Below are positions 3,358 through 58,157 of a stretch of 64,000 nucleotides of DNA, piece by piece (positions within the stretch are counted from its first letter, which is position 1; each line of letters opens with the position of its first letter). The translations under genes were made by a program, and so were the position numbers. The notes under the pieces are model-generated. The model did no database searches. It worked only from the letters and a program-made list of their open reading frames with translations, and had not been told where the DNA came from. The stretch comes from Actinomycetota bacterium. Lineage in GTDB: Bacteria > Actinomycetota > Thermoleophilia > Gaiellales > Gaiellaceae. The DNA lies in NCBI GenBank assembly GCA_003132665.1, contig PKYN01000019.1, positions 17,696 to 81,695 on the forward strand, in the 5' to 3' direction.

Positions 3358-4501
3358 TGCATTCTCCACGTTCGAATGGGGCGTGCTCGATTGCCTCGCG
3401 GTAGATCTGTTCGAGAGAGGTCAGTGCCACCTCGGGGCTAAAGTTCTTGCGCCAACTCTCGTTGGCGCCCTGGCCTAGCCGCTCGGAGGTCGCGTCGTCG
3501 GCGAGCACCTCAACCGCCTCGGCCCAAGCGTCGGCATCGTCTACCCGAACCAGAAGGCCCGAGATGTCGTGGCTTACGTGCTCCGGAAGGCCTCCGATGT
3601 CGCTAGCGATCACCGGCACGCCCGCGGCCAGCGCCTCGATCACCGCGCGCGGCGATCCCTCATAGCAGCGCGACGGGTAGAGCAGCGTTCGCGCCCGGCT
3701 TAGTAGGCCAGCCGCTTCGTCCGATTCAACCCTTCCGCGGAACTCCACACCTGGGCGAGCAAGCGCCTCCAAGCGCTCGCGCTCGGGCCCGTCGCCGACG
3801 ACCAGCAGCGGCAGCGGCGAGCGCCAGGAGCCGATCACAGTATCCAGACCCTTCTCCGCTGACAGCCTGCCTAGGATCAGAAAGTACTCGCCGGGCCCGC
3901 GGCGTCGCTCCGCCGGCCAGGCAAAATTACGGCGCACAACCATCCGCTCCGGATCGAGACCCGCGAAGCCGAGTTTCTGCCGTTGGAACTCGCTCAGCAC
4001 GATGAAACGGTCAACACGATCGAAGGTTCGAATCGCTCGGTGTAGTGCCAATGATGTCGCCAGCACGGAGCTGGCCGAGCGCGAGTCGCGGTAACAGCCG
4101 TGCGCGATCCCGCGCCAGGGAACGTGGCCGAGGCAGTCTTCGCAGATCCGGCCGTCGCGCAAGAACGTAGCGGGAAGACAGGAGAGGCGAAAGTTGTGCA
4201 GCGTCATCACCGTCGGTAGATCGATGCGCAGAACCGCGGGCGAGAGCATCGGAAATACGTTGTGGGCGTGAATCACGTCGATCTGCTGCTCGGACACCCG
4301 TCGCGCCGTTTCCGTCCGAGCACGTCTCGACCAGACCGCGTCTATTCCGGCGCGGATCGCGCCCATCTGTTCGTACCGCGGCGTCCAGGCATCGACGTGG
4401 TTACCACCTTCCGATAGGAGCCGGAATTCATCCTCGACGACGCGGTTCTCGCCTGAATTGCTTCCGCTCGCGTAGCGAGAGTGAAGAATAAGAACGTTCA
4501 T
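3344..4501 (-). CDS. GT4 family glycosyltransferase
   Basis: A cytoplasmic GT-B fold glycosyltransferase of 385 residues that transfers a sugar from a nucleotide donor to a lipid-linked acceptor. N-terminal domain: MNVLILHSRYASGSNSGENR, then VIHAHNVFPMLSP and TLHNFRLSCLP. C-terminal donor domain: FLILGRLSAEKGLDTVIGSW, VGDGPERERLEA, and the EGSPRAVIEALAAGVPVIASDIGGLPE nucleotide-sugar loop with its conserved glutamate. It ends WRKNFSPEVALTSLEQIYREAIEH. Broken relatives of this gene (head at 7333, tail at 1215) lie on both sides, so it may have replaced or been duplicated from an older copy. The donor and acceptor sugars are unknown. Confidence 0.88.
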   Translation of the reverse strand: MNVLILHSRYASGSNSGENRVVEDEFRLLSEGGNHVDAWTPRYEQMGAIRAGIDAVWSRRARTETARRVSEQQIDVIHAHNVFPMLSPAVLRIDLPTVMTLHNFRLSCLPATFLRDGRICEDCLGHVPWRGIAHGCYRDSRSASSVLATSLALHRAIRTFDRVDRFIVLSEFQRQKLGFAGLDPERMVVRRNFAWPAERRRGPGEYFLILGRLSAEKGLDTVIGSWRSPLPLLVVGDGPERERLEALARPGVEFRGRVESDEAAGLLSRARTLLYPSRCYEGSPRAVIEALAAGVPVIASDIGGLPEHVSHDISGLLVRVDDADAWAEAVEVLADDATSERLGQGANESWRKNFSPEVALTSLEQIYREAIEHAPFERGECNEDT

Positions 4502-4705
4502 TTACCTACTCCCTGTCGCCGAAAATAGAGAAGAAGATGAGGCGTTCCGATTCCTGGCCATTCCGCATCCATCGAAGATCGTATAGGGACATGTGAGGCC
4601 GGAAGCTAACGTCTGCAGCAAGACCACCGTTCGGTTTCTTGCTTTGTTCCGCCATCTGCGAGGCCATCGGTGTGAGTTGCTAGGACGCGCACGTCTGTCT
4701 CCCGC

Positions 4706-5425
4706 TCAGCGAGCTTTCGACGCGTTGATGGCTTCGCTGTTCGTCGCAGGAAGAAGCCCTCGCTCAGAGGCTTCCTCGAGGAGGAACTCGAGTTCGCCCC
4801 AGAGACCCAGCGTCTCGATTTCCCTGCTGTGCCCCCAGATATGTAAGAGCAATCCGTGGTCGCCCGCGACACTCACCATCTCTCCAAGCCTCGCCCGCAC
4901 GGTTCTCGAGCGCGACCACGCTTTAAGATACGCGACGGTTGGGATAGAGCGCCACTTTATAAGGTGTCCATACGTCCTCAAGCGTGTGTGGGGGTAGAGC
5001 TGAGCTGATGGGATGATCAGGCCCGGTTTCTGGCGACGACCCCCAAGGATCGGCGCTGTTCGTACTAAGAAACCGTTAGCGCCTAGAGTCGTGATCCCTG
5101 CTTTCGAAACGAGACCTCGCGGGGGAGCGACGATGGCGTGCGGCTCTGCGAACATCCGGATTTGCTCTTCTGCCCACGCAACCTCCTTCATGAGCTCCTG
5201 CATGGAGAGCTCGGTAAAGAGCCGATGCGAGCGGCCGTGATTGCCGATCTCGTGCCCAAGCGAAACGACCTCTAGAAGAGCGTTGTCGTCGAGCGTTCGC
5301 CGACCAGCCGGCCCGGTCGTTGCGTAGAAAGTTCCTCGGTAGCCGTACTCCGCCAGTAAGCGCCCAAGCACCAGGTCTTCGGGCGTTCCGTCGTCCCAAC
5401 TCGTCGTGAGGATCGCGACGGTCAC
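4706..5425 (-). CDS. Polysaccharide deacetylase (NodB-like)
   Basis: A 239-residue carbohydrate esterase of the polysaccharide deacetylase family, expected to remove acetyl groups from N-acetylated sugars. The metal-binding aspartates are in TTSWDDGTPED near residue 10, and the two histidines are in GHEIGNHGRSHR near residue 58. A later LLLHIWGHSREI segment supplies the C-terminal catalytic histidine region. No signal peptide is visible, so it probably acts on cytoplasmic or lipid-linked intermediates. GTG 5425 is the start; it overlaps the TGA of the upstream glycosyltransferase (GTGA), implying coupled translation. A 204-bp gap to the next gene shows nothing notable. Confidence 0.85.
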   Translation of the reverse strand: MTVAILTTSWDDGTPEDLVLGRLLAEYGYRGTFYATTGPAGRRTLDDNALLEVVSLGHEIGNHGRSHRLFTELSMQELMKEVAWAEEQIRMFAEPHAIVAPPRGLVSKAGITTLGANGFLVRTAPILGGRRQKPGLIIPSAQLYPHTRLRTYGHLIKWRSIPTVAYLKAWSRSRTVRARLGEMVSVAGDHGLLLHIWGHSREIETLGLWGELEFLLEEASERGLLPATNSEAINASKAR

Positions 5426-48424: not shown

Positions 48425-49441
48425 ATGAGAAGCGCACTAATCGAAGATCATCCGGATGCGAGAGCCAATGGCGCGGCCTTCCTCACCAAGCTCGACCGCT
48501 TCGGCACCGAGCCACTCTCCTTCCTGCTGCGCTACGACGCACCGTGGCGAACCTTTTCGCTCGGCGAGGGAGTTGTTTGCTACCTCGAGTCGCGGCGAGC
48601 AGCCGTCGTCTGGACAGACCCGCTCTGCTCGGATTCGGAGCTGCCCGGGCTGCTTGGCGCTTTCGCGCGAGCCATGCGCGCCGAGCACCGTTCCGTCTGC
48701 CTGCTGGCCGTCTCCGAGCGGACGGCGCGAACGGCAATCGAGATCGGCTTTTCGGCTCTGAAGATCGGTGAGGAGCCCTGGTTCGACTTCGCCAGCTGGC
48801 ACACCCCTCGCGGTAACCGCGGCAAGAAGTACCGCTGGGCGGCAAATCACGCCCAGCGGATGGGCGTCGAGATCGCGGAGTACCGGCCGGGCGAGACGCG
48901 AGACATCCGCATCGAGAGCGAGGTGCTGGACGTGCTCGCGCGCTGGCGCGCTGCCCTGAAGAAGCCCGAGCCGAGCTCCTTTTTGCGCACCTCGCCGTTC
49001 GAGCAGGCGCGCCTCAAGCGTGTCTTTCTCGCCCGTCGCAACGGAAGAGCTGAAGCCGCTCTTGCCTGTGCCTACCTTCCCGCGATCGGCGGCTGGTACC
49101 TGGAGGATTCCTTCCGGGCGCCGGACGCCGTCAACGGAGCGACCGAGCTACTGATCGCCACCGCGCTGGCGCGCCTGCAGGCCGACGGCGCCCGGGGAGC
49201 CGCTTTCGCCATGGCCCCGATGCGAGGGTTCGAAGAGCAACTCGACCGGCGTGCGCGATGGATCGGCCGCGTGGTGGCGCGAGCGATACACCGAGTCGAT
49301 CATCGCTACGGGTTCGGCGCGATGGCCCGCTACGAGGCGCGCTTCGAGCCCAGTGAGTGGCGTCCGCGCTACATCGCATTCCTACCGGCGCTCCCGCGCC
49401 CGGCCGCCATTCGAGCGGCGCTGCGAGTTCTATCCGCCTGA
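48425..49441 (+). CDS. DUF2156 (LPG synthase C-terminal-like) protein
   Basis: A 338-residue soluble protein resembling the C-terminal acyltransferase-like domain of phosphatidylglycerol lysyltransferase. Visible family features: FLLRYDAPWRTFSLGEGVVC near the N terminus, GEEPWFDFASW near 118, GKKYRWAANHAQRMGVEIAE near 132, RRNGRAEAALACAYLPAIGG then WYLEDSFRAPDAVNGATELL near 210, and MRGFEEQLDRR. It lacks the membrane domain of full MprF, so it may aminoacylate something else. Its stop overlaps the convergent histidine-kinase stop by 12 bases. Confidence 0.82.
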   Translation: MRSALIEDHPDARANGAAFLTKLDRFGTEPLSFLLRYDAPWRTFSLGEGVVCYLESRRAAVVWTDPLCSDSELPGLLGAFARAMRAEHRSVCLLAVSERTARTAIEIGFSALKIGEEPWFDFASWHTPRGNRGKKYRWAANHAQRMGVEIAEYRPGETRDIRIESEVLDVLARWRAALKKPEPSSFLRTSPFEQARLKRVFLARRNGRAEAALACAYLPAIGGWYLEDSFRAPDAVNGATELLIATALARLQADGARGAAFAMAPMRGFEEQLDRRARWIGRVVARAIHRVDHRYGFGAMARYEARFEPSEWRPRYIAFLPALPRPAAIRAALRVLSA

Positions 49442-50518
49442 CGCCGTTTTCTCGCAGCCCGAACCATCCGAGCCGTCGCCCTGGTCCGAGGCGCTTCCGG
49501 CTCCTTCGGCGGCGAGCGTGAAATAGAAGGTCGCGCCCTTTCCGGGCTCCGACTCGGCCCAAACGCGACCTCCGTGCCGTTCGACGATCCGCGCAACGAG
49601 CGCCAGGCCCACGCCTGTCCCCTCGAAGTCGGCGCGGCCGTGCAAACGCTGGAATGCCTCGAACAACCGCCCGGACTGACCCATGTCGAATCCGACTCCG
49701 TTGTCTCGAACAAACAGAACCTGCCCCTTGCTCCGCCGGGACGAACCGATCTCGACCCGAGCCCGGGGCTCCGCCCCGCGTGAGAACTTGATCGCATTCG
49801 AGATGAGGTTCACGAACACCCGCTTGAGCAAGCCACGATCGGCGGCGACAACGGGAAGCTCGCCGATCGTCAAATCTACGTCGGAGACCGTGAGCTGCTG
49901 CTCCAGCTCGCCGATAGCCTCGTGCGCCAGCAACTCGAGATCAACCGATTCGAGATCGAGCGGTAGGCGATTCGCCTGGGCCAGCGCGAGTAGATCGTTG
50001 ACCAGCTCGCTCATCCCCCGCGCGCCCTTGATGATCATCTCGATGTGGTGCTGAGCCTCGGGCGGAAGATCATTTGAGTAGCGGGCGGTAAGCGTCTGCG
50101 CGAACCCCAACACGGCTTGCAGCGAGGTTCGCAGGTCGTGCGAAATCGAGTAGCTGAAGGTCTCGAGCTCGCCATTGGCGATCTCGAGCTCTCTGGTGCG
50201 CTCGATCAGGGTGTCGTTCATCTCGGCCAACTCCCGACTCATCTGTTCGAGCCGGTGCCGAGCATTCGAGAAGGGCCGCAGCGCCTCGATGAGAAAGCGG
50301 GAGGCGCGATCGTTAACGAGCTCGCGAGGGACGTCCGCCGGCGATTCGCCGTCACGTAGCGCCTCGAAGTGAGCGGCGGCGATGTCCGACGAGTCGAGAC
50401 CGGCCTCCAGGCTGATCTTTCCGAATTCGCGAGCGCGTGCGAGCGCTTCCTCGCTCGCTTCGGCTATGTACGTCCACAAGGCGTTGCTGTACGCCGACCG
50501 TAGATCAGGCTTGTTCAT
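49430..50518 (-). CDS. Sensor histidine kinase with RsbU N-terminal domain
   Basis: A 362-residue cytoplasmic kinase with no membrane helix. Residues 7-80 form an RsbU_N-type helical domain (AYSNALWTYIAEASEEALAR, AREFGKISLEAGLDSSDIAA), which in other proteins docks to a switch protein. A coiled linker follows (RLEQMSRELAEMNDTLIERT). Kinase core: H-box SYSISHDLRTSLQAVLGF near 125, N-box VFVNLISNAIKFS near 233, G1 VRDNGVGFD, G2 GTGVGLALVARIVERHGG. Probably linked to general stress signalling, by analogy with RsbU. No partner regulator is adjacent. Confidence 0.88.
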   Translation of the reverse strand: MNKPDLRSAYSNALWTYIAEASEEALARAREFGKISLEAGLDSSDIAAAHFEALRDGESPADVPRELVNDRASRFLIEALRPFSNARHRLEQMSRELAEMNDTLIERTRELEIANGELETFSYSISHDLRTSLQAVLGFAQTLTARYSNDLPPEAQHHIEMIIKGARGMSELVNDLLALAQANRLPLDLESVDLELLAHEAIGELEQQLTVSDVDLTIGELPVVAADRGLLKRVFVNLISNAIKFSRGAEPRARVEIGSSRRSKGQVLFVRDNGVGFDMGQSGRLFEAFQRLHGRADFEGTGVGLALVARIVERHGGRVWAESEPGKGATFYFTLAAEGAGSASDQGDGSDGSGCEKTASGG

Positions 50519-51976: not shown

Positions 51977-52207
51977 CTACTCCGAAACTCGCGCACGGCT
52001 CTGCTTGGCAGCCTGCACGAGTCTTAATGCGAGCACTGGGCACGCATCGACGGCGCGACGGGCGTGCTCCTTCAGCTCGCGTGGGACTGGGCCCGGTCGC
52101 ACGATCGGGTAGCCCCAATCGTCGAGCGAGATCCACTCTGGGAACAGCTCGGCGCAGAGCCCGTGAGCGTCGCAGGCAATCGGGTTGACGCGGACGGTCT
52201 CGTTCAT
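51977..52207 (-). CDS. Single-cluster ferredoxin ([3Fe-4S] or [4Fe-4S] type)
   Basis: A 76-residue ferredoxin. The cysteine pattern is ACDAHGLCAELFPE near residue 11 (C-x5-C) and DACPVLALRL near 54 (CP), leaving three cysteines, typical of actinobacterial [3Fe-4S] ferredoxins. The start ATG 52207 overlaps the stop of the NuoF-like gene (ATGA). It is the last gene of the redox operon and probably shuttles electrons between the flavoprotein and a partner, either the heme membrane protein upstream or an enzyme elsewhere. Confidence 0.88.
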   Translation of the reverse strand: MNETVRVNPIACDAHGLCAELFPEWISLDDWGYPIVRPGPVPRELKEHARRAVDACPVLALRLVQAAKQSRARVSE

Positions 52208-53502
52208 CGCGCCCTCCCGAGCGGGAGCGGAGCGCGGCGCGTACCCTGGCAGCGGCCGCGCGCGTGGAGCTCCACCTCGGCGCCGAAGACGCGCAGCGCG
52301 CTCTCGACCAGGCGCGCGGCGCCGTCGGGATGGCGGCAGGCGCCGCGACCCTTCACCTGTCCGAGCCAGCGCTTCAGTTGGGCAGGCGCGCCGGCGGCAT
52401 CCCGGCCGCCGCGAGCGAGGCGCTCGAAGGCGCCCGCTATTGCGTCGAGTCCGTGCACACATGGGCCACACTGGCCTGCGCTCTCGTCAGCCAGATAGCG
52501 GATGACGTGCGCACTCTCGACGAGGCCGCAGGCGCTCCGCGGCAGCGCGAAGATGGCGCGCGCGCCGAGCGAGGCGCCCGCCGAAGCGAGGTCGGCGTCG
52601 ATCAGCCTCAGGCGAAGCGCCTGCTCCGCCGCGACCCAGGTGCCGAAGTAGCCACCAACCAGAAGCGCCGTGAGCGACTCCGGGGGCCCGACGGCCCAAG
52701 CGAGTAGGTCGGCGACCGGCAGGCCGAGCGGCACCTCGTACACACCGGGGCGAGCGACGGCACCGCCGACTGTGACGAGCGCGCTGCCCGGCTCCGCAGC
52801 GGTCCCGATCGAGCGGAACCAGCGCGGGCCGAAGCGGGAGATGAGCGCCAAATGGGCGAGCGTCTCGACGTTCTGGACTAGCGTCGGCGCGCCCCCGACG
52901 CCGCGTTCGAACGGTCGTGGCGGCGTGAGGGTGGGCGTGGCCGGGCCGCCGTTGAGCGAGTGGATGATCGCCGTCTCCTCGCCGGCAACGAACCCGTCCG
53001 GCACGCGGGCCACCCGGATCTGGATCCGGTCGATGTCGTGGCGCTCGCGCTCGGCCAGCGCCGCCCTCATGACCGCGATCTCGTGGGTGGCGCCCGCCGC
53101 AAACGCGACGATCGCCGTGCGTGCGCCGACCGCACCGGCTGCGAGCGCGACTCCATCGAGGACGAGGTGGGGCGTATGGCGCAGGAGCGCCTTGTCCTTG
53201 TCGCTCACCGGCTCGCCCTCGACGCCGTTCCCGACGACGACCGGGCGCGCGTGCGCATCGGCGACCGCGCGCAGCTTGCGAGCCGTGGCGAAACCGGCGC
53301 CGCCACGGCCGGTGAGCCCCGCCGCAGCCACGAGCTCGATCAACTCTCCGGAACGAGAACGGCCGGCGGTCTGGCGGTCGGCCCCGTAGCGGTCGAAGTG
53401 CTCCTCAAGTGACAGCGGGCGATCGGCGAGCGCGCCGGCGAGGAGTCGCGGCAGCTCGGCGGCAGCCGCGGTGGGCGGGGCGAGCTCGGTTGAGCTGCTC
53501 AT
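52204..53502 (-). CDS. NuoF-like NADH-binding flavoprotein with Fe-S domain
   Basis: A 432-residue relative of the complex I NADH-binding subunit. FMN/NADH region: LTGRGGAGFATARKLRAVAD near residue 62, VGNGVEGEPVSDKDKALL near 88 and DGFVAGEETAIIHSLNGGPA near 168. SLBB domain near 240-290 (ALVTVGGAVARPGVYEVPLG). Fe-S domain near 340: SAGQCGPCVHGLDAI and RGACRHPDGAARL. The first cysteine of the usual SCGxCxPC signature is alanine, so the cluster may be incomplete or three-iron. No Nuo partners are nearby; it pairs instead with a ferredoxin and a heme membrane protein. Confidence 0.88.
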   Translation of the reverse strand: MSSSTELAPPTAAAAELPRLLAGALADRPLSLEEHFDRYGADRQTAGRSRSGELIELVAAAGLTGRGGAGFATARKLRAVADAHARPVVVGNGVEGEPVSDKDKALLRHTPHLVLDGVALAAGAVGARTAIVAFAAGATHEIAVMRAALAERERHDIDRIQIRVARVPDGFVAGEETAIIHSLNGGPATPTLTPPRPFERGVGGAPTLVQNVETLAHLALISRFGPRWFRSIGTAAEPGSALVTVGGAVARPGVYEVPLGLPVADLLAWAVGPPESLTALLVGGYFGTWVAAEQALRLRLIDADLASAGASLGARAIFALPRSACGLVESAHVIRYLADESAGQCGPCVHGLDAIAGAFERLARGGRDAAGAPAQLKRWLGQVKGRGACRHPDGAARLVESALRVFGAEVELHARGRCQGTRRAPLPLGRAR

Positions 53503-53507
53503 TCGCT

Positions 53508-54608
53508 CTATCCTCGACCCGCGACGCCGTGGATCGTTCCGCTGACTGTTCCGGCGTTGGGGTCGATCTGGAGGTCGAGTAGGAAGCGGCGCGTCGCTCC
53601 GTTCCCGGTTTTAACCTGCGTCAGGATGCGCTGGCCTTGCAGTCCGACGACGCTGCCCGAGTACCACGAGCCGGAGCCGGCCGGAAGGAGGCCGACCACG
53701 TTGTCGACCATATTTACGCCGCCGCCCGCGATCGGAACACCACGCAAAGCGACGTGCACACGCCCCGTGAAGACACCGTGCGCGGTAGCGTCGATCGTGA
53801 TCACAACCAGCCCGTCGCTCTGAGCGTTGTCCACGATCCGGCCCCGAAGCGGCGTGCTGAAGACGCCCGTCGGTAACGGGGGCTCCGCGGTGGTCGTTTG
53901 TGGCGTCTTGCTGCCCGTCGTCACGACGCCTGTTCTGAGCAACCGCGCCGGGGTGCCCGCACGGGCCGCCCAACCGCGGCTCAGCGGGCCGCTGTTCGCC
54001 CAGACGAGCAGAGCTAGCGGTACCGTGAACGCTGCAAGACCGGCGCCGGCGCGCACCCAAGCCGCGCCGTCGCGCGCCGCCCAGACCCGCCAGAGCACGG
54101 CCGCGCCGACCGCGCCGGTGCAGCCGATCGAGAGGAGCTGCAACCAGCTCGAGCGGGCGTCGCTTCCGGTCCCGAGCGTGTGCATGAGAGCAATCGGCCA
54201 GGAGATGTAGGCGAACCAGTGCACCACGCGCCACCCTTTGAAGCCGATGCGGGCCCGCAGCAGGCTCGTTACGACAAGCGCAAGCAGTAGGTCGAATGCA
54301 ACGGCGCCGAGACCGAGCCACACGGGGCGGTAGGGCGAGCGGAAGGGGACGACAGCGTCGAGCAGCCCGATCGGCGCGAAGCCGTCAAGCACGGCCGTGA
54401 CGACGTGTACGGCGACGAAGAGGATCGAGAGCAGCGTGAGGTTGCGATGGAGGCCGGTGACGAGGAAGCGCGGCCAGTGCTCGCGGCTCCAGCGCGTCGA
54501 GCCAGCTACGCCAGAAACGATCCCGCCGGTGAGCAGGAGCAGCGCGACGACGCCCGTTCCGCGCGTGAGAAACCAGAGTTCCTTTCCATTGCTCGCCGCG
54601 AGAAGCAT
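53508..54608 (-). CDS. Ferric-reductase-like heme b membrane protein with extracytoplasmic domain
   Basis: A 366-residue membrane protein. Six helices in residues 10-215 carry paired histidines for two b-type hemes (TGLHRNLTLL and VAVHVVTAVL; RVVHWFAYIS and ALMHTLGTGS), as in ferric reductase-like transmembrane domains. A helix near 205 leads to an extracytoplasmic beta-rich domain of about 130 residues (DGLVVITIDATAHGVFTGRV, VALRGVPIAGGGVNMVDNVV). It probably moves electrons from the cytoplasmic flavoprotein or ferredoxin to the outside. ATG 54608 lies just after the ApbE stop; the longer frame upstream is inside apbE. Confidence 0.83.
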   Translation of the reverse strand: MLLAASNGKELWFLTRGTGVVALLLLTGGIVSGVAGSTRWSREHWPRFLVTGLHRNLTLLSILFVAVHVVTAVLDGFAPIGLLDAVVPFRSPYRPVWLGLGAVAFDLLLALVVTSLLRARIGFKGWRVVHWFAYISWPIALMHTLGTGSDARSSWLQLLSIGCTGAVGAAVLWRVWAARDGAAWVRAGAGLAAFTVPLALLVWANSGPLSRGWAARAGTPARLLRTGVVTTGSKTPQTTTAEPPLPTGVFSTPLRGRIVDNAQSDGLVVITIDATAHGVFTGRVHVALRGVPIAGGGVNMVDNVVGLLPAGSGSWYSGSVVGLQGQRILTQVKTGNGATRRFLLDLQIDPNAGTVSGTIHGVAGRG

Positions 54609-54610
54609 CG

Positions 54611-55534
54611 TTACGCGGCCTGCGCGGGCCAGCCCCCGGCGCCGCTTGCGTGGCCCGAAGTGTGGACGAGGCGCGCCGAAAGCCCGCGCGCCGAAAGCCA
54701 CGCGGGCGCCTCGTCGCCAAGGATCACGGCGGCGGTGCTTGCGATGTTCGCATCGACGCAGGAGCCGGCCGCGACGGTCACCGTTCGCCACGGCGTCGCG
54801 GCGGGCCGGCCGCTGCGCGGGTCGATGATGTGGTGGAGCTCCGGTGCGCCGGCGCGCCAGCGCCTGACAACAGTTCCGGAGGTAGCAAGACCACCCTCGT
54901 GAATCGCCACCGACGGCCCGGGCCCGTTGAGCGGAGCCGCGTGGTCGTCGGCGAGGCGGATCGCCCAACCCCCGAGGGGTGGGGCTCCGGCGACCGCGAC
55001 GTCGCCGCCGAGTGAGACAAGTACGCCACTGCCGGTCGCCGCGGCCGCCGCGGCCGCGGCGCGGTCGGCTGCGAGCGCCTTCGCGGTCGCGCCGAGGTCG
55101 AGCTCGACGCCGGGCGGGACGGTGACGGTGTGAGCAGTCGCGTCGAGGCGCACCTGCCGCCAGCCCGGGACGGAGTCAAAGCGGGCGCGGAACAGCGCGC
55201 CGTCGCGGTCGCGGACGAGCTCGAAGTCGCGGTCGTAGCCGGCCAGACGCAGCGTCCGCCCGACTGTCGGGTCGACAATTCCATCGGTGAGCTCGGCCGC
55301 GCGCAGCGCGACCGTGATCGCCTCGAACAGAGTTTCTCCCACCCGCACAGTCGTACCCACGGCGGCGTTCAGCCGCACGAGCTCCGCGTCGTCGCGAAAG
55401 CGGCTGCAGGCCCGGTTGATGTCGGCGAGTACGTCTTCGAGCACGCCGCGCGCGTCTTCGAGCGCGGCCGGCTCAGTCACGCAGATCGAGGCGGTCGAGC
55501 CGAGCGCCGGGAAAGCGGCGGAGGCTAAGTTCAC
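54611..55534 (-). CDS. apbE: FAD:protein FMN transferase (ApbE)
   Basis: A 307-residue flavin transferase that attaches FMN to a threonine of partner proteins outside the membrane. Motifs: FPALGSTASICVTEP at the start, GIVDPTVGRTLRLAGYD near 85, LDLGATAKALAADRAAA near 145, VLVSLGGDVAVAGAPP near 172, and ELHHIIDPRSGRPAATPWRT near 228. No clear signal peptide. In this operon no partner with a canonical FMN_bind domain is evident, so its target must be the membrane protein beside it or a protein elsewhere. Its start overlaps the upstream stop (ATGA). Confidence 0.9.
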   Translation of the reverse strand: MNLASAAFPALGSTASICVTEPAALEDARGVLEDVLADINRACSRFRDDAELVRLNAAVGTTVRVGETLFEAITVALRAAELTDGIVDPTVGRTLRLAGYDRDFELVRDRDGALFRARFDSVPGWRQVRLDATAHTVTVPPGVELDLGATAKALAADRAAAAAAAATGSGVLVSLGGDVAVAGAPPLGGWAIRLADDHAAPLNGPGPSVAIHEGGLATSGTVVRRWRAGAPELHHIIDPRSGRPAATPWRTVTVAAGSCVDANIASTAAVILGDEAPAWLSARGLSARLVHTSGHASGAGGWPAQAA

Positions 55535-55851
55535 GATCCTCCCGAAACGACGACGGGCGGCTGTTGAGTCGGCGCGGGCGCCTGACTCGAAGCGAGCGGC
55601 GGGGCCGATGCGGAACCCGGCTCGCTGGGCAGAGCCGGTGGCGGCGGGGTCGAAGAGTGAATAGTGGAGGAGTGAACCGCGACGTGAACCGGGCGCACGC
55701 TCTTGTGGCCGGGCGTCGAGCGTGCGGCAACCGCAGAGAAGAGAGCCGCGAGCGCCGCGGTCGAAAGCGTGGCGATCCTCGTCACCCGCTTGAGCCGTCG
55801 CAGCCCGGCCGTCCGGATCTTGGCGCGTTCGCGCAGAGTGGGATCGTTCAT
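55531..55851 (-). CDS. Small single-helix membrane protein with Pro/Ser-rich tail
   Basis: A 106-residue protein with a basic N terminus (RERAKIRTAGLRRLKRVTRI), one helix (ATLSTAALAALFSAVAA) and a low-complexity Pro/Ser/Ala tail outside (STPPPPALPSEPGSASAPPL, QAPAPTQQPPVVVSGGS). I recognise no family. Its overlap with apbE (ATGA) and its place in the redox operon suggest a structural or tethering part of the electron-transfer system. It lacks the threonine motif that ApbE normally flavinylates. Confidence 0.7.
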   Translation of the reverse strand: MNDPTLRERAKIRTAGLRRLKRVTRIATLSTAALAALFSAVAARSTPGHKSVRPVHVAVHSSTIHSSTPPPPALPSEPGSASAPPLASSQAPAPTQQPPVVVSGGS

Positions 55852-55908: not shown

Positions 55909-57282
55909 TTAAAGCTGGCTGGCCGTTGGAATAGCGGCTGGCACGGCGATCCAGACATCGGTGCCCGCGCCCACACTGCTCGCTACGTGCGCTGCGCCGC
56001 CGTGAGCCCGTGCGATCAGGTCGACGATCGATAGGCCGAGACCTGAGCCGCCGCGGCTGCGTGCGTCGTCGGCGCGGCTGAAACGGTCGAATGCCCGTGC
56101 CTCGAACTGCTGTGGGAACCCCGGGCCTTCGTCGTGAACATGAAGCTCGACGAGAGCCCCATGCGTATGGGCGGACAGCTCGATCGGGCCTGCGCCGTGC
56201 ACGAGCGCGTTGTCGACGAGGTTGCCAAGCGCCTGCTCGAGTTGGCTTGCGTCGACGCTGACGACGAGTTCTTTCTCGCCGGCGACGACGATCTCGCGCC
56301 CGAGCTCCCGCGCCCGACCGGCGAACCGCGCCGCGACACGGCTCAGGAGTTCGGTTGCGAGCACCGGCTCGGACTGGATCGGCAGGTGACCCTGCTCGGA
56401 ACGGGCGATGAGCAGGAGATCCTCGGTCAGGCGGGTTAGCCGCTCGGTCTCCTCGACCGCGGAGCGGAGCGCATCCTCGAGCTCCTCGCGGGTGCGCGGT
56501 CGCCGCAGCGCAACCTCGAGCTCGATGCGCAGCAGCGCCAGCGGTGTGCGTAGCTCGTGGCTCGCGTCGGCCACGAAGCGACGCTCGTGCTCGAAGGCCG
56601 ATTGGAGCCGGTCGAGCATCCTGTTTAGCGTCTCGGCCAGGCGCGCGATCTCGTCCCGGGCTGCGGGCACGGGCAACCGGCGCCCGGGGGTTGAGGCGCT
56701 GATCGCGGCGGCGCGGTGGCGCATCGACTCCACCGGGCGTAGCGCCGCGGCAGCGAGACCATAGCCCGCGAGCGCGGCGAGCAGGAGAGCGATCGGACCG
56801 GCGACGGAGAACTCCACGAACAGCCGGTGCAGAGTCTCCTCGCGCGCCGTTAGCGAGGCGAGCAAGACGAGCGCGCGCGGCTGGTCGCCGACCGTCACGG
56901 GAACGGCGAGCAGACGCCAGTCGCCCGCACGGCCGGCGACCTGCGTCGTGTTTACGAGATCCGCCCCGGCTGTGACCCGGACGGCGGCAGCAGCGGAGAG
57001 GAGCGGCGGCAGTCCCGGCGGCGTCGAGCGCAGCACCGTGCCGTTGGCATAGAGGAGCTGAGCGAGCCGGGCTCCGGTAGCCGTGTCCGGGTCGATCAAG
57101 CTGCCGGTTAGGCTCACGTCGCGACCGGTCTCCCTGGCCTGCAAGCGTAGGCCCTGGTCGATCGAGGAGGCAAGAGCGTGGCCGACCCGCACGTACACGA
57201 ACACCGCCATCGCCACCAGGACGACGGCCATCACCGTCGCGAAGACGAGCGTCAGCCGCAACCGCAACGGCAGACGGCTCAC
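55909..57282 (-). CDS. Sensor histidine kinase with HAMP domain
   Basis: A 457-residue membrane kinase. Helix 1 near 10-32 (LTLVFATVMAVVLVAMAVFV), an extracytoplasmic sensor of about 130 residues, helix 2 near 165 (VAGPIALLLAALAGYGLAAA), a HAMP domain (ALRPVESMRHRAAAISA), H-box FVADASHELRTPLALLRIEL, N-box LGNLVDNALVHGAG, G1 VHDEGPGFP and G2 GGSGLGLSIVDLIARAHGG. GTG 57282 is preferred over TTG 57312 because GGGAG lies eight bases upstream. With the OmpR-type regulator it forms a pair that heads and probably controls the redox operon. Confidence 0.9.
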   Translation of the reverse strand: MSRLPLRLRLTLVFATVMAVVLVAMAVFVYVRVGHALASSIDQGLRLQARETGRDVSLTGSLIDPDTATGARLAQLLYANGTVLRSTPPGLPPLLSAAAAVRVTAGADLVNTTQVAGRAGDWRLLAVPVTVGDQPRALVLLASLTAREETLHRLFVEFSVAGPIALLLAALAGYGLAAAALRPVESMRHRAAAISASTPGRRLPVPAARDEIARLAETLNRMLDRLQSAFEHERRFVADASHELRTPLALLRIELEVALRRPRTREELEDALRSAVEETERLTRLTEDLLLIARSEQGHLPIQSEPVLATELLSRVAARFAGRARELGREIVVAGEKELVVSVDASQLEQALGNLVDNALVHGAGPIELSAHTHGALVELHVHDEGPGFPQQFEARAFDRFSRADDARSRGGSGLGLSIVDLIARAHGGAAHVASSVGAGTDVWIAVPAAIPTASQL

Positions 57283-57382
57283 GGCCTCAGCTCCCGATCG
57301 CTGTTCTGGCAACCGGACATTTCAGGTGAAAGCACGGACGCAATCCGTGCCGCCTGAGGACGGCATCGCAAGCGGTGTCTCA

Positions 57383-58057
57383 TCAGCCGTCCTCGCGCAG
57401 CCGGTAGCCGACGTGGCGCACCGTCTGGATCGAGTCACGCCCGAACGGCCGGTCGACCTTCTCACGCAAGTAGCGAATGTAGACGTCGACAACGTTGGAG
57501 CGCACCTCGAACGCCATATCCCAGGCGCCTTCGAGCAGCTGAGCGCGGCTAAGCGTCTGCCCCGGTCGACGCATGAGGAGCTCTAGCAGCGCGAACTCGC
57601 GTGCCGAAAGATCGAGCTCCACGTCGCCGCACCAGGCGCGGTGGGCCGCCGGATCTAGGCGCAGGTCGCCGACTTGGAGCGTGACCGGCCGCTCCTGTGG
57701 CGCCCGCCGCGTGAGCGCGCGCAGGCGTGCAACGAGCTCCGAGAACGAGAACGGCTTGACGAGGTAGTCATCCGCACCGGTGTCGAGACCGGCCACTCGG
57801 TCGGAGACCGCGTCGCGCGCGGTCAGGATCAACACCGGAGTCCATACCTCGCTCGCGCGCATCTGCCGGCAGGTCTCAAGCCCGTCCAGGCCGGGCAGCA
57901 TGATGTCGAGGATCACGATGTCGTACGGGGTCGCCCGCACCATCCAGAGCGCATCCTCGCCGCGTCCGGCAACGTCGACGGCGTGACCCTCCTCGCGCAG
58001 GCCGCGCGCGAGCAGCTCGGCCATCTTGATCTCATCCTCCACCACGAGCACGCGCAT
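57383..58057 (-). CDS. OmpR/PhoB-family response regulator
   Basis: A 224-residue regulator. Receiver: MRVLVVEDEIKMAELLARGL, acceptor aspartate in IVILDIMLPGLDGLET, switch threonine in VLILTARDAVSDRV, lysine in DDYLVKPFSFSELVARLRAL. C-terminal winged helix: LDLSAREFALLELLMRRPGQ, then AFEVRSNVVDVYIRYLREKV. ATG 58057 is chosen; a GTG two codons upstream is possible. It is the first gene of the redox operon, followed by its kinase. A dyad GCAAATG/CATTTGC about 100 bp upstream may be its own binding site. Confidence 0.92.
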   Translation of the reverse strand: MRVLVVEDEIKMAELLARGLREEGHAVDVAGRGEDALWMVRATPYDIVILDIMLPGLDGLETCRQMRASEVWTPVLILTARDAVSDRVAGLDTGADDYLVKPFSFSELVARLRALTRRAPQERPVTLQVGDLRLDPAAHRAWCGDVELDLSAREFALLELLMRRPGQTLSRAQLLEGAWDMAFEVRSNVVDVYIRYLREKVDRPFGRDSIQTVRHVGYRLREDG

Positions 58058-58157
58058 GACCACATTCTCGCGCGCGGATGAGCCGTGAGCGACGGTCTTT
58101 CATCGTGTTGTTCGGGCACAAATCCGGAACTCGTGCCCAAATCGCCTCCAATCGTCC

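Follow-up and report, generated by a model that had tools for sequence, protein, structure and literature searches.

A C-terminal SGGS tail as the proposed flavin acceptor of an ApbE operon with MsrQ-like and NuoF-like proteins in Actinomycetota

Gene clusters that combine an ApbE flavin transferase with an MsrQ-like heme protein of the Ferric_reduct family were described by Méheust et al. 2021 (PMC8238504), mostly in Actinobacteria, and 31 of them have a NuoF-like protein with the PF10589 domain. These clusters were found through FMN_bind or through an ApbE with a signal peptide, and they typically include a gene for a flavinylated FMN_bind protein. The same survey counted ~4% of its genomes as having ApbE without a known substrate, genes lacking a signal peptide having been removed beforehand. 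The known substrates, namely FMN_bind, DUF2271, DUF3570, Flavodoxin_4 and FMN_red with a C-terminal extension, bear a [ST]GA[ST]-like motif and are encoded beside apbE (PMC8238504, PMC11334425). In all of them a folded domain lies close to the flavin, and in FMN_red the sites lie on the unstructured C-terminal extension.

The residue modified by ApbE is the final one of a motif that can be as short as seven residues, and flavin tags are most effective at protein termini (PMC12052999). An engineered short terminal motif with the aspartate and SGAT suffices for flavinylation in the artificial Flavin-tag of Tong et al. 2021 (see the review PMC12052999). Cytosolic ApbEs exist as well, including a Klebsiella enzyme without a signal peptide whose substrate, a fumarate reductase, is a soluble cytosolic enzyme with no membrane heme protein involved (PMC12052999). 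Replacing the motif's aspartate by alanine had only a minor effect in Klebsiella (PMC12052999), but the aspartate was called essential for Vibrio ApbE (PMC10722498).

We analyzed a window of 64,000 nucleotides from contig PKYN01000019.1 of an Actinomycetota assembly (GCA_003132665.1, 77.5% complete). Its minus strand carries a five-gene operon running from 55851 to 51977 and encoding, in this order, a small anchored protein, ApbE, a Ferric_reduct/MsrQ-like di-heme membrane protein, a NuoF-like flavoprotein and a ferredoxin. The operon had been proposed in an earlier note on this DNA; we verified the presence, position and strand of all of its genes and matched their domains in Pfam. The genes abut or overlap: the stop codon of the small gene coincides with the start of apbE (GTGA), and the genes for the NuoF-like protein and the ferredoxin overlap through ATGA. 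The features of the locus are as follows.

55531..55851, minus strand: small anchored protein of 106 residues, the proposed ApbE substrate and flavin carrier, without a Pfam or NCBIfam match
55534..55545, minus strand: codons of the C-terminal SGGS, whose last serine is the proposed flavin acceptor; kept in 72 of 80 loci, and in this genome also holding the GGAGG ribosome-binding site of apbE
54611..55534, minus strand: ApbE flavin transferase with a GTG start (PF02424, 8.4e-51), without a signal peptide and predicted to be cytosolic
53508..54608, minus strand: MsrQ-like (Ferric_reduct, PF01794) heme membrane protein with invariant histidines and a STEAP1/2-like model
53526..53861, minus strand: exported domain of the MsrQ-like protein, predicted as an eight-stranded beta barrel, optional and not FMN_bind
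53592..53606, minus strand: GNGAT of the heme protein's tail, located in a hairpin turn, not conserved and rejected as the acceptor
52204..53502, minus strand: NuoF-like NAD(P)H/FMN/Fe-S protein with five invariant cysteines (325, 345, 348, 389 and 418)
51977..52207, minus strand: single-cluster ferredoxin of the CxxHxxC...CP type (Fer4_15, 1.6e-12 in Pfam)
55909..57312, minus strand: sensor histidine kinase (HisKA/HATPase_c/HAMP), directly upstream and co-directional, a probable regulator
57383..58063, minus strand: OmpR-type response regulator, upstream and co-directional with the operon, a probable regulator

A co-directional pair of histidine kinase and response regulator was found at 26 of 80 related loci, and close relatives of the window's own two-component system (55909-58063) adjoin the cluster in L040, L041, L043, L045 and L096. 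A second histidine kinase, with an N-terminal RsbU_N domain (PF08673), lies 1.5 kb beyond the operon (49430-50518). The gene set also occurs in named strains: Catenulispora pinisilvae, Actinocrinis puniceicyclus and Actinospica acidithermotolerans.

The proteins of the electron route resemble those of the described clusters. The ApbE matches PF02424 over its whole domain (positions 2-262 of 266) and is the only ApbE of its genome (77.5% complete). The MsrQ-like protein matches Ferric_reduct (PF01794, 4e-7); its helix histidines His54, His68, His130 and His143 are invariant in an alignment of 45 relatives, and the membrane part of its model resembles STEAP1/2 in Foldseek. Together with apbE, a PF01794 membrane protein with conserved heme histidines defines an MsrQ-like flavinylation cluster, and the cytosolic NAD(P)H-oxidising partner of such clusters carries PF00175 or PF10589; the second of these (NADH_4Fe-4S, 9.3e-16) is present in the NuoF-like protein, alongside Complex1_51K (3e-35) and SLBB. 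Since the latter protein scores 219 bits against an NCBIfam cut-off of 559 for the NuoF equivalog, it is NuoF-like rather than the NuoF of complex I. It retains the GRGGxxF loop and five cysteines. Complex I NuoF usually has CxxCxxC, and the first of these cysteines is replaced here. In the NuoF-like family (52204-53502), alanine takes its place, yet Cys325 and Cys418 are invariant, and a cluster ligand may have been swapped. The earlier note had taken this electron route to be unfamiliar and perhaps of a new type, a view that does not hold, as clusters of MsrQ-like, NuoF-like and ApbE genes are already present in PMC8238504. Our verdict, a prediction from sequence, is that the route is of a known type and that the substrate class is new.

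The operon differs from the described clusters in its proposed substrate. The FMN_bind gene typical of them (PMC8238504) is missing, the ApbE lacks a signal peptide, and a tail-bearing small protein stands in the substrate's place. Pfam bore out the earlier statement that no protein of the operon has a canonical FMN_bind domain. We also searched the rest of the genome, where a canonical FMN_bind protein would have spoken against the earlier proposal; none was found in the 77.5% complete assembly, and neither were DUF2271 or DUF3570. The target is thus none of the described domains covered by the own-genome search, namely these three. The pattern extends to related genomes: 28 of 49 cluster-bearing genomes, this one included, have ApbE and lack FMN_bind, and DUF2271 and DUF3570 are absent from all 28 as well. 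Where FMN_bind is present, it mostly adjoins another type of ApbE, recognizable by a split Pfam match and a separate clade in the ApbE tree. As a control, we looked for DxxSGAT proteins near canonical ApbEs and found them at 0 of 30 loci, but within short flanks.

One candidate acceptor, close to the idea of the earlier note, is the exported tail of the MsrQ-like protein, with its GNGAT as a degenerate motif. The GAT of the window's protein and the presence of the exported domain in more than half of the relatives speak for it. The earlier note had suggested a structure prediction of this domain, and the model is a confident eight-stranded beta barrel (pLDDT 90.8). The domain has no sequence match in Pfam or the PDB; the best Foldseek hits are barrels such as PloI4/AbyU, none of them significant, and none has the FMN_bind fold. 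In the predicted structure, GNGAT sits in a hairpin turn, and the four nearest relatives have GGGST, ASGAH, PSGVR and ARDTL at this site. Moreover, 23 relatives lack the whole domain, their chains ending 12-41 residues past the membrane part, and 21 of these 23 keep the SGGS protein. We therefore rejected GNGAT as the flavin acceptor, being unconserved, placed in a hairpin turn and part of a dispensable domain; we read it as a chance match, and consider flavinylation of the barrel very unlikely.

The small protein offers a better candidate. Its 106 residues comprise a basic N-terminus, a single hydrophobic segment, an arm rich in Pro, Ser, Ala and Thr, and SGGS at the extreme C-terminus, and they have no match in Pfam or NCBIfam. 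In relatives, the arm is of low complexity, mostly 47-168 residues long, and rich in P, S, T, A, G and Q. The best-conserved feature of the protein is its last four residues, with the consensus [ST]-G-[GASQ]-[ST] and almost always SGGS. In the GTDB collection, 72 of 80 loci encode a protein whose end is [ST]G[AGSQ][ST], followed by no more than five residues; the ORF lies directly upstream of apbE at 60 of them and directly upstream of the MsrQ gene, without an intervening apbE, at 12. Five of the remaining eight loci are cut by contig ends. Of the 60 copies that precede apbE, 59 have S/T at the fourth position from the end, 56 and 59 have G at the next two, and 59 end in S; the residues further in show only a loose preference for V, P, A, S and T. 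To gauge this enrichment, we used ORFs of the opposite strand and canonical ApbE loci as controls: ORFs ending in SGG[ST] numbered 69 of 3834 on the plus strand versus 2 of 4180 on the minus strand.

The tail also resembles the motif that ApbE recognizes. The variants SGAS (L089, L195), TGAS (L188, L192), SGGT (L041) and TGGS (L048, L057, L078) fall within or beside [ST]GA[ST]; the window's SGGS differs from it by Gly for Ala, and the SGAS and TGAS of some relatives match it exactly. Three residues before the first S/T, where the canonical motif has its aspartate, we found P, V, A or G. The earlier remark that the 106-residue protein lacks the motif is thus accurate for canonical DxxSGAT but overlooks the conserved variant that forms its end. 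The flavinylation target, which the note had left as unknown, is now proposed to be this very protein, and its last serine is the most likely acceptor.

Several other tails were observed in the course of this analysis. In L048, an MsrQ-like paralogue (4118-4876) has a C-terminus that itself reads ATGAS; this ORF and two ApbE/MsrQ-matching or neighboring ORFs (L048:2947-3996 and L057:795-1892) end in ATGAS or ATGGS, as if a flavin tail were fused to the heme protein. Sister small proteins upstream of apbE in L160, L173, L175, L274, L280 and L295 end in CSG[ST]xCP or C(Y)xxPSGxxxC, where an SG[ST] core between two cysteines might form a disulfide loop around the acceptor. In other Actinomycetota (L260, L270, L273, L276, L283 and L285), one to five residues follow the motif, for example in TGGSHP, TGGSAPPP, SGASGAYR and SGGSN, and the acceptor therefore does not have to be terminal.

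Since the SGGS codons adjoin apbE, their conservation could in principle be a by-product of the GGAGG ribosome-binding site of that gene and the GTGA overlap. The codons of the window and of L031, TCG GGA GGA TCG followed by TGA, do contain GGAGG. However, GGAGG occurs in only 16 of the 60 copies, and serine is encoded by both TCN and AGY codons. In the three near relatives whose upstream gene could be read (L031, L032 and L033), the small protein always ends in SGGS, with AGC GGC GGT TCG in L032 and TCA GGG GGC AGT in L033. The 60 tail-coding copies comprise 41 different 12-mers, and the 12 further tails do not precede apbE. This variation and the copies away from apbE refute an artefact of the Shine-Dalgarno sequence, which we regard as extremely improbable, and indicate that SGGS is selected at the protein level.

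Alternatively, SGGS might be a docking signal, read by MsrQ, the NuoF-like protein or a protease, while ApbE modifies an unrecognized protein elsewhere or has another activity. This would fit the 12 loci in which the small gene adjoins the MsrQ gene and not apbE. We consider it unlikely: the tail has the spacing and the permitted residues of the ApbE motif, in many genomes ApbE occurs without any of the known substrate domains that we looked for, and the motif type of the small protein clusters on the ApbE tree (16 changes versus 45.5 in shuffles).

Four points can be read from sequence: which genes make up the operon, how well the tail is conserved at the protein level, that it matches the ApbE motif, and that those known substrate domains that were searched for are absent. 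Flavinylation of the small protein, an outside tail and an outward electron flow are our inferences. Electrons would pass from NAD(P)H to the NuoF-like flavoprotein, the ferredoxin, the two b-hemes of the MsrQ-like protein and finally a flavin, an FMN that ApbE would attach covalently to the last serine of SGGS. The small protein would thus be a carrier without a folded flavin domain, held in the membrane by one N-terminal segment and bearing FMN at the far end of a long arm that is disordered and rich in Pro and Ser. The arm is most likely on the outer face, and the flavin would move back and forth between the heme protein and an acceptor located in the cell wall or farther out. We hold this explanation as a whole, with the arm probably outside, to be probable.

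The side of the membrane deserves separate consideration. Charge bias places the N-terminus inside in 47 of 61 small proteins, and the arm is therefore probably outside. The ApbE, in turn, lacks a signal peptide: a hydrophobic N-terminus was found in just 2 of 60 cluster ApbEs, as against 24 of 30 ApbEs of canonical loci. If the tail is outside, FMN would have to be attached before or during export. The same lack of a signal peptide would suit a flavinylated tail that stays in the cytosol and links the NuoF-like protein to the inner heme as an electron relay. Against such a relay, which we judge improbable, stand the charge bias, the extracytosolic location of the known MsrQ partners (PMC8238504), and the sister tails with the motif between two cysteines (CSG[ST]xCP, CYxxPSGxxxC), which suggest an oxidising place. 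Of the two arrangements, we favor export after flavinylation, in view of the cysteine pair around the motif of some sister tails.

To avoid the bias of a search through the heme protein, we turned to an independent sample of 296 Actinomycetota genomes chosen by ApbE alone, in which we read 55 ApbE loci of the non-canonical range. An anchored low-complexity arm lies upstream in 35 of 44 ApbE+MsrQ loci; the identical filter detected none at 30 canonical ApbE loci. [ST]G[AGS][ST] occurs within the last 10 residues of 12 of the 35 arms, against 1.05 predicted by the remainder of the arms (p 2e-10), and 19 of 35 have a C-terminal serine (3.6 expected, p 1e-10). The p-values count related loci as independent, and a few of the loci overlap the earlier sets. 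In a separate count of 28 arms without an SGGS-type end, nearly all from ApbE+MsrQ clusters lacking a NuoF-like gene, serine is last in 18 (4.6 expected), each time with S/T three residues earlier.

Several observations weigh against the C-terminal serine as acceptor. The motif lacks the conserved aspartate called essential for Vibrio ApbE (PMC10722498), it mostly has Gly in the position of Ala, and Vibrio ApbE accepts serine less well than threonine (PMC12052999). Three loci that are uncut at this point (L061, L098 and L115) have no such motif, and a disordered peptide would offer its FMN no protein pocket in which the potential could be tuned. Overall, published biochemistry allows for flavinylation of a terminal serine. 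Compared with the engineered Flavin-tag, the tail would be natural, mostly SGGS and free of the aspartate; the Klebsiella system shares an ApbE without a signal peptide and a motif aspartate of little importance. Unlike the known substrates named above, the small protein has no folded domain near the proposed acceptor, which is the last residue of its chain, and we found no description of a C-terminal tail of this kind in openly licensed papers.

Taken across Actinomycetota and Dormibacterota, we lean slightly towards a widespread and undescribed class of flavin carriers, with FMN on the C-terminal serine of an anchored, disordered arm that has no folded flavin-binding domain. Their FMN would be attached by a cytosolic ApbE subfamily and their electrons would come from MsrQ-like heme proteins, with SGGS tails accompanying NuoF-like partners and related [ST]xxS tails accompanying others. 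The class would have escaped the earlier survey because genes without signal peptides were dropped there (PMC8238504), and, if true, it would explain many orphan ApbE genes. A terminal tetrapeptide as a natural acceptor would widen the recognition rules of ApbE and yield a shorter flavin tag, and a redox carrier built like a fishing line could reach through the Gram-positive wall.
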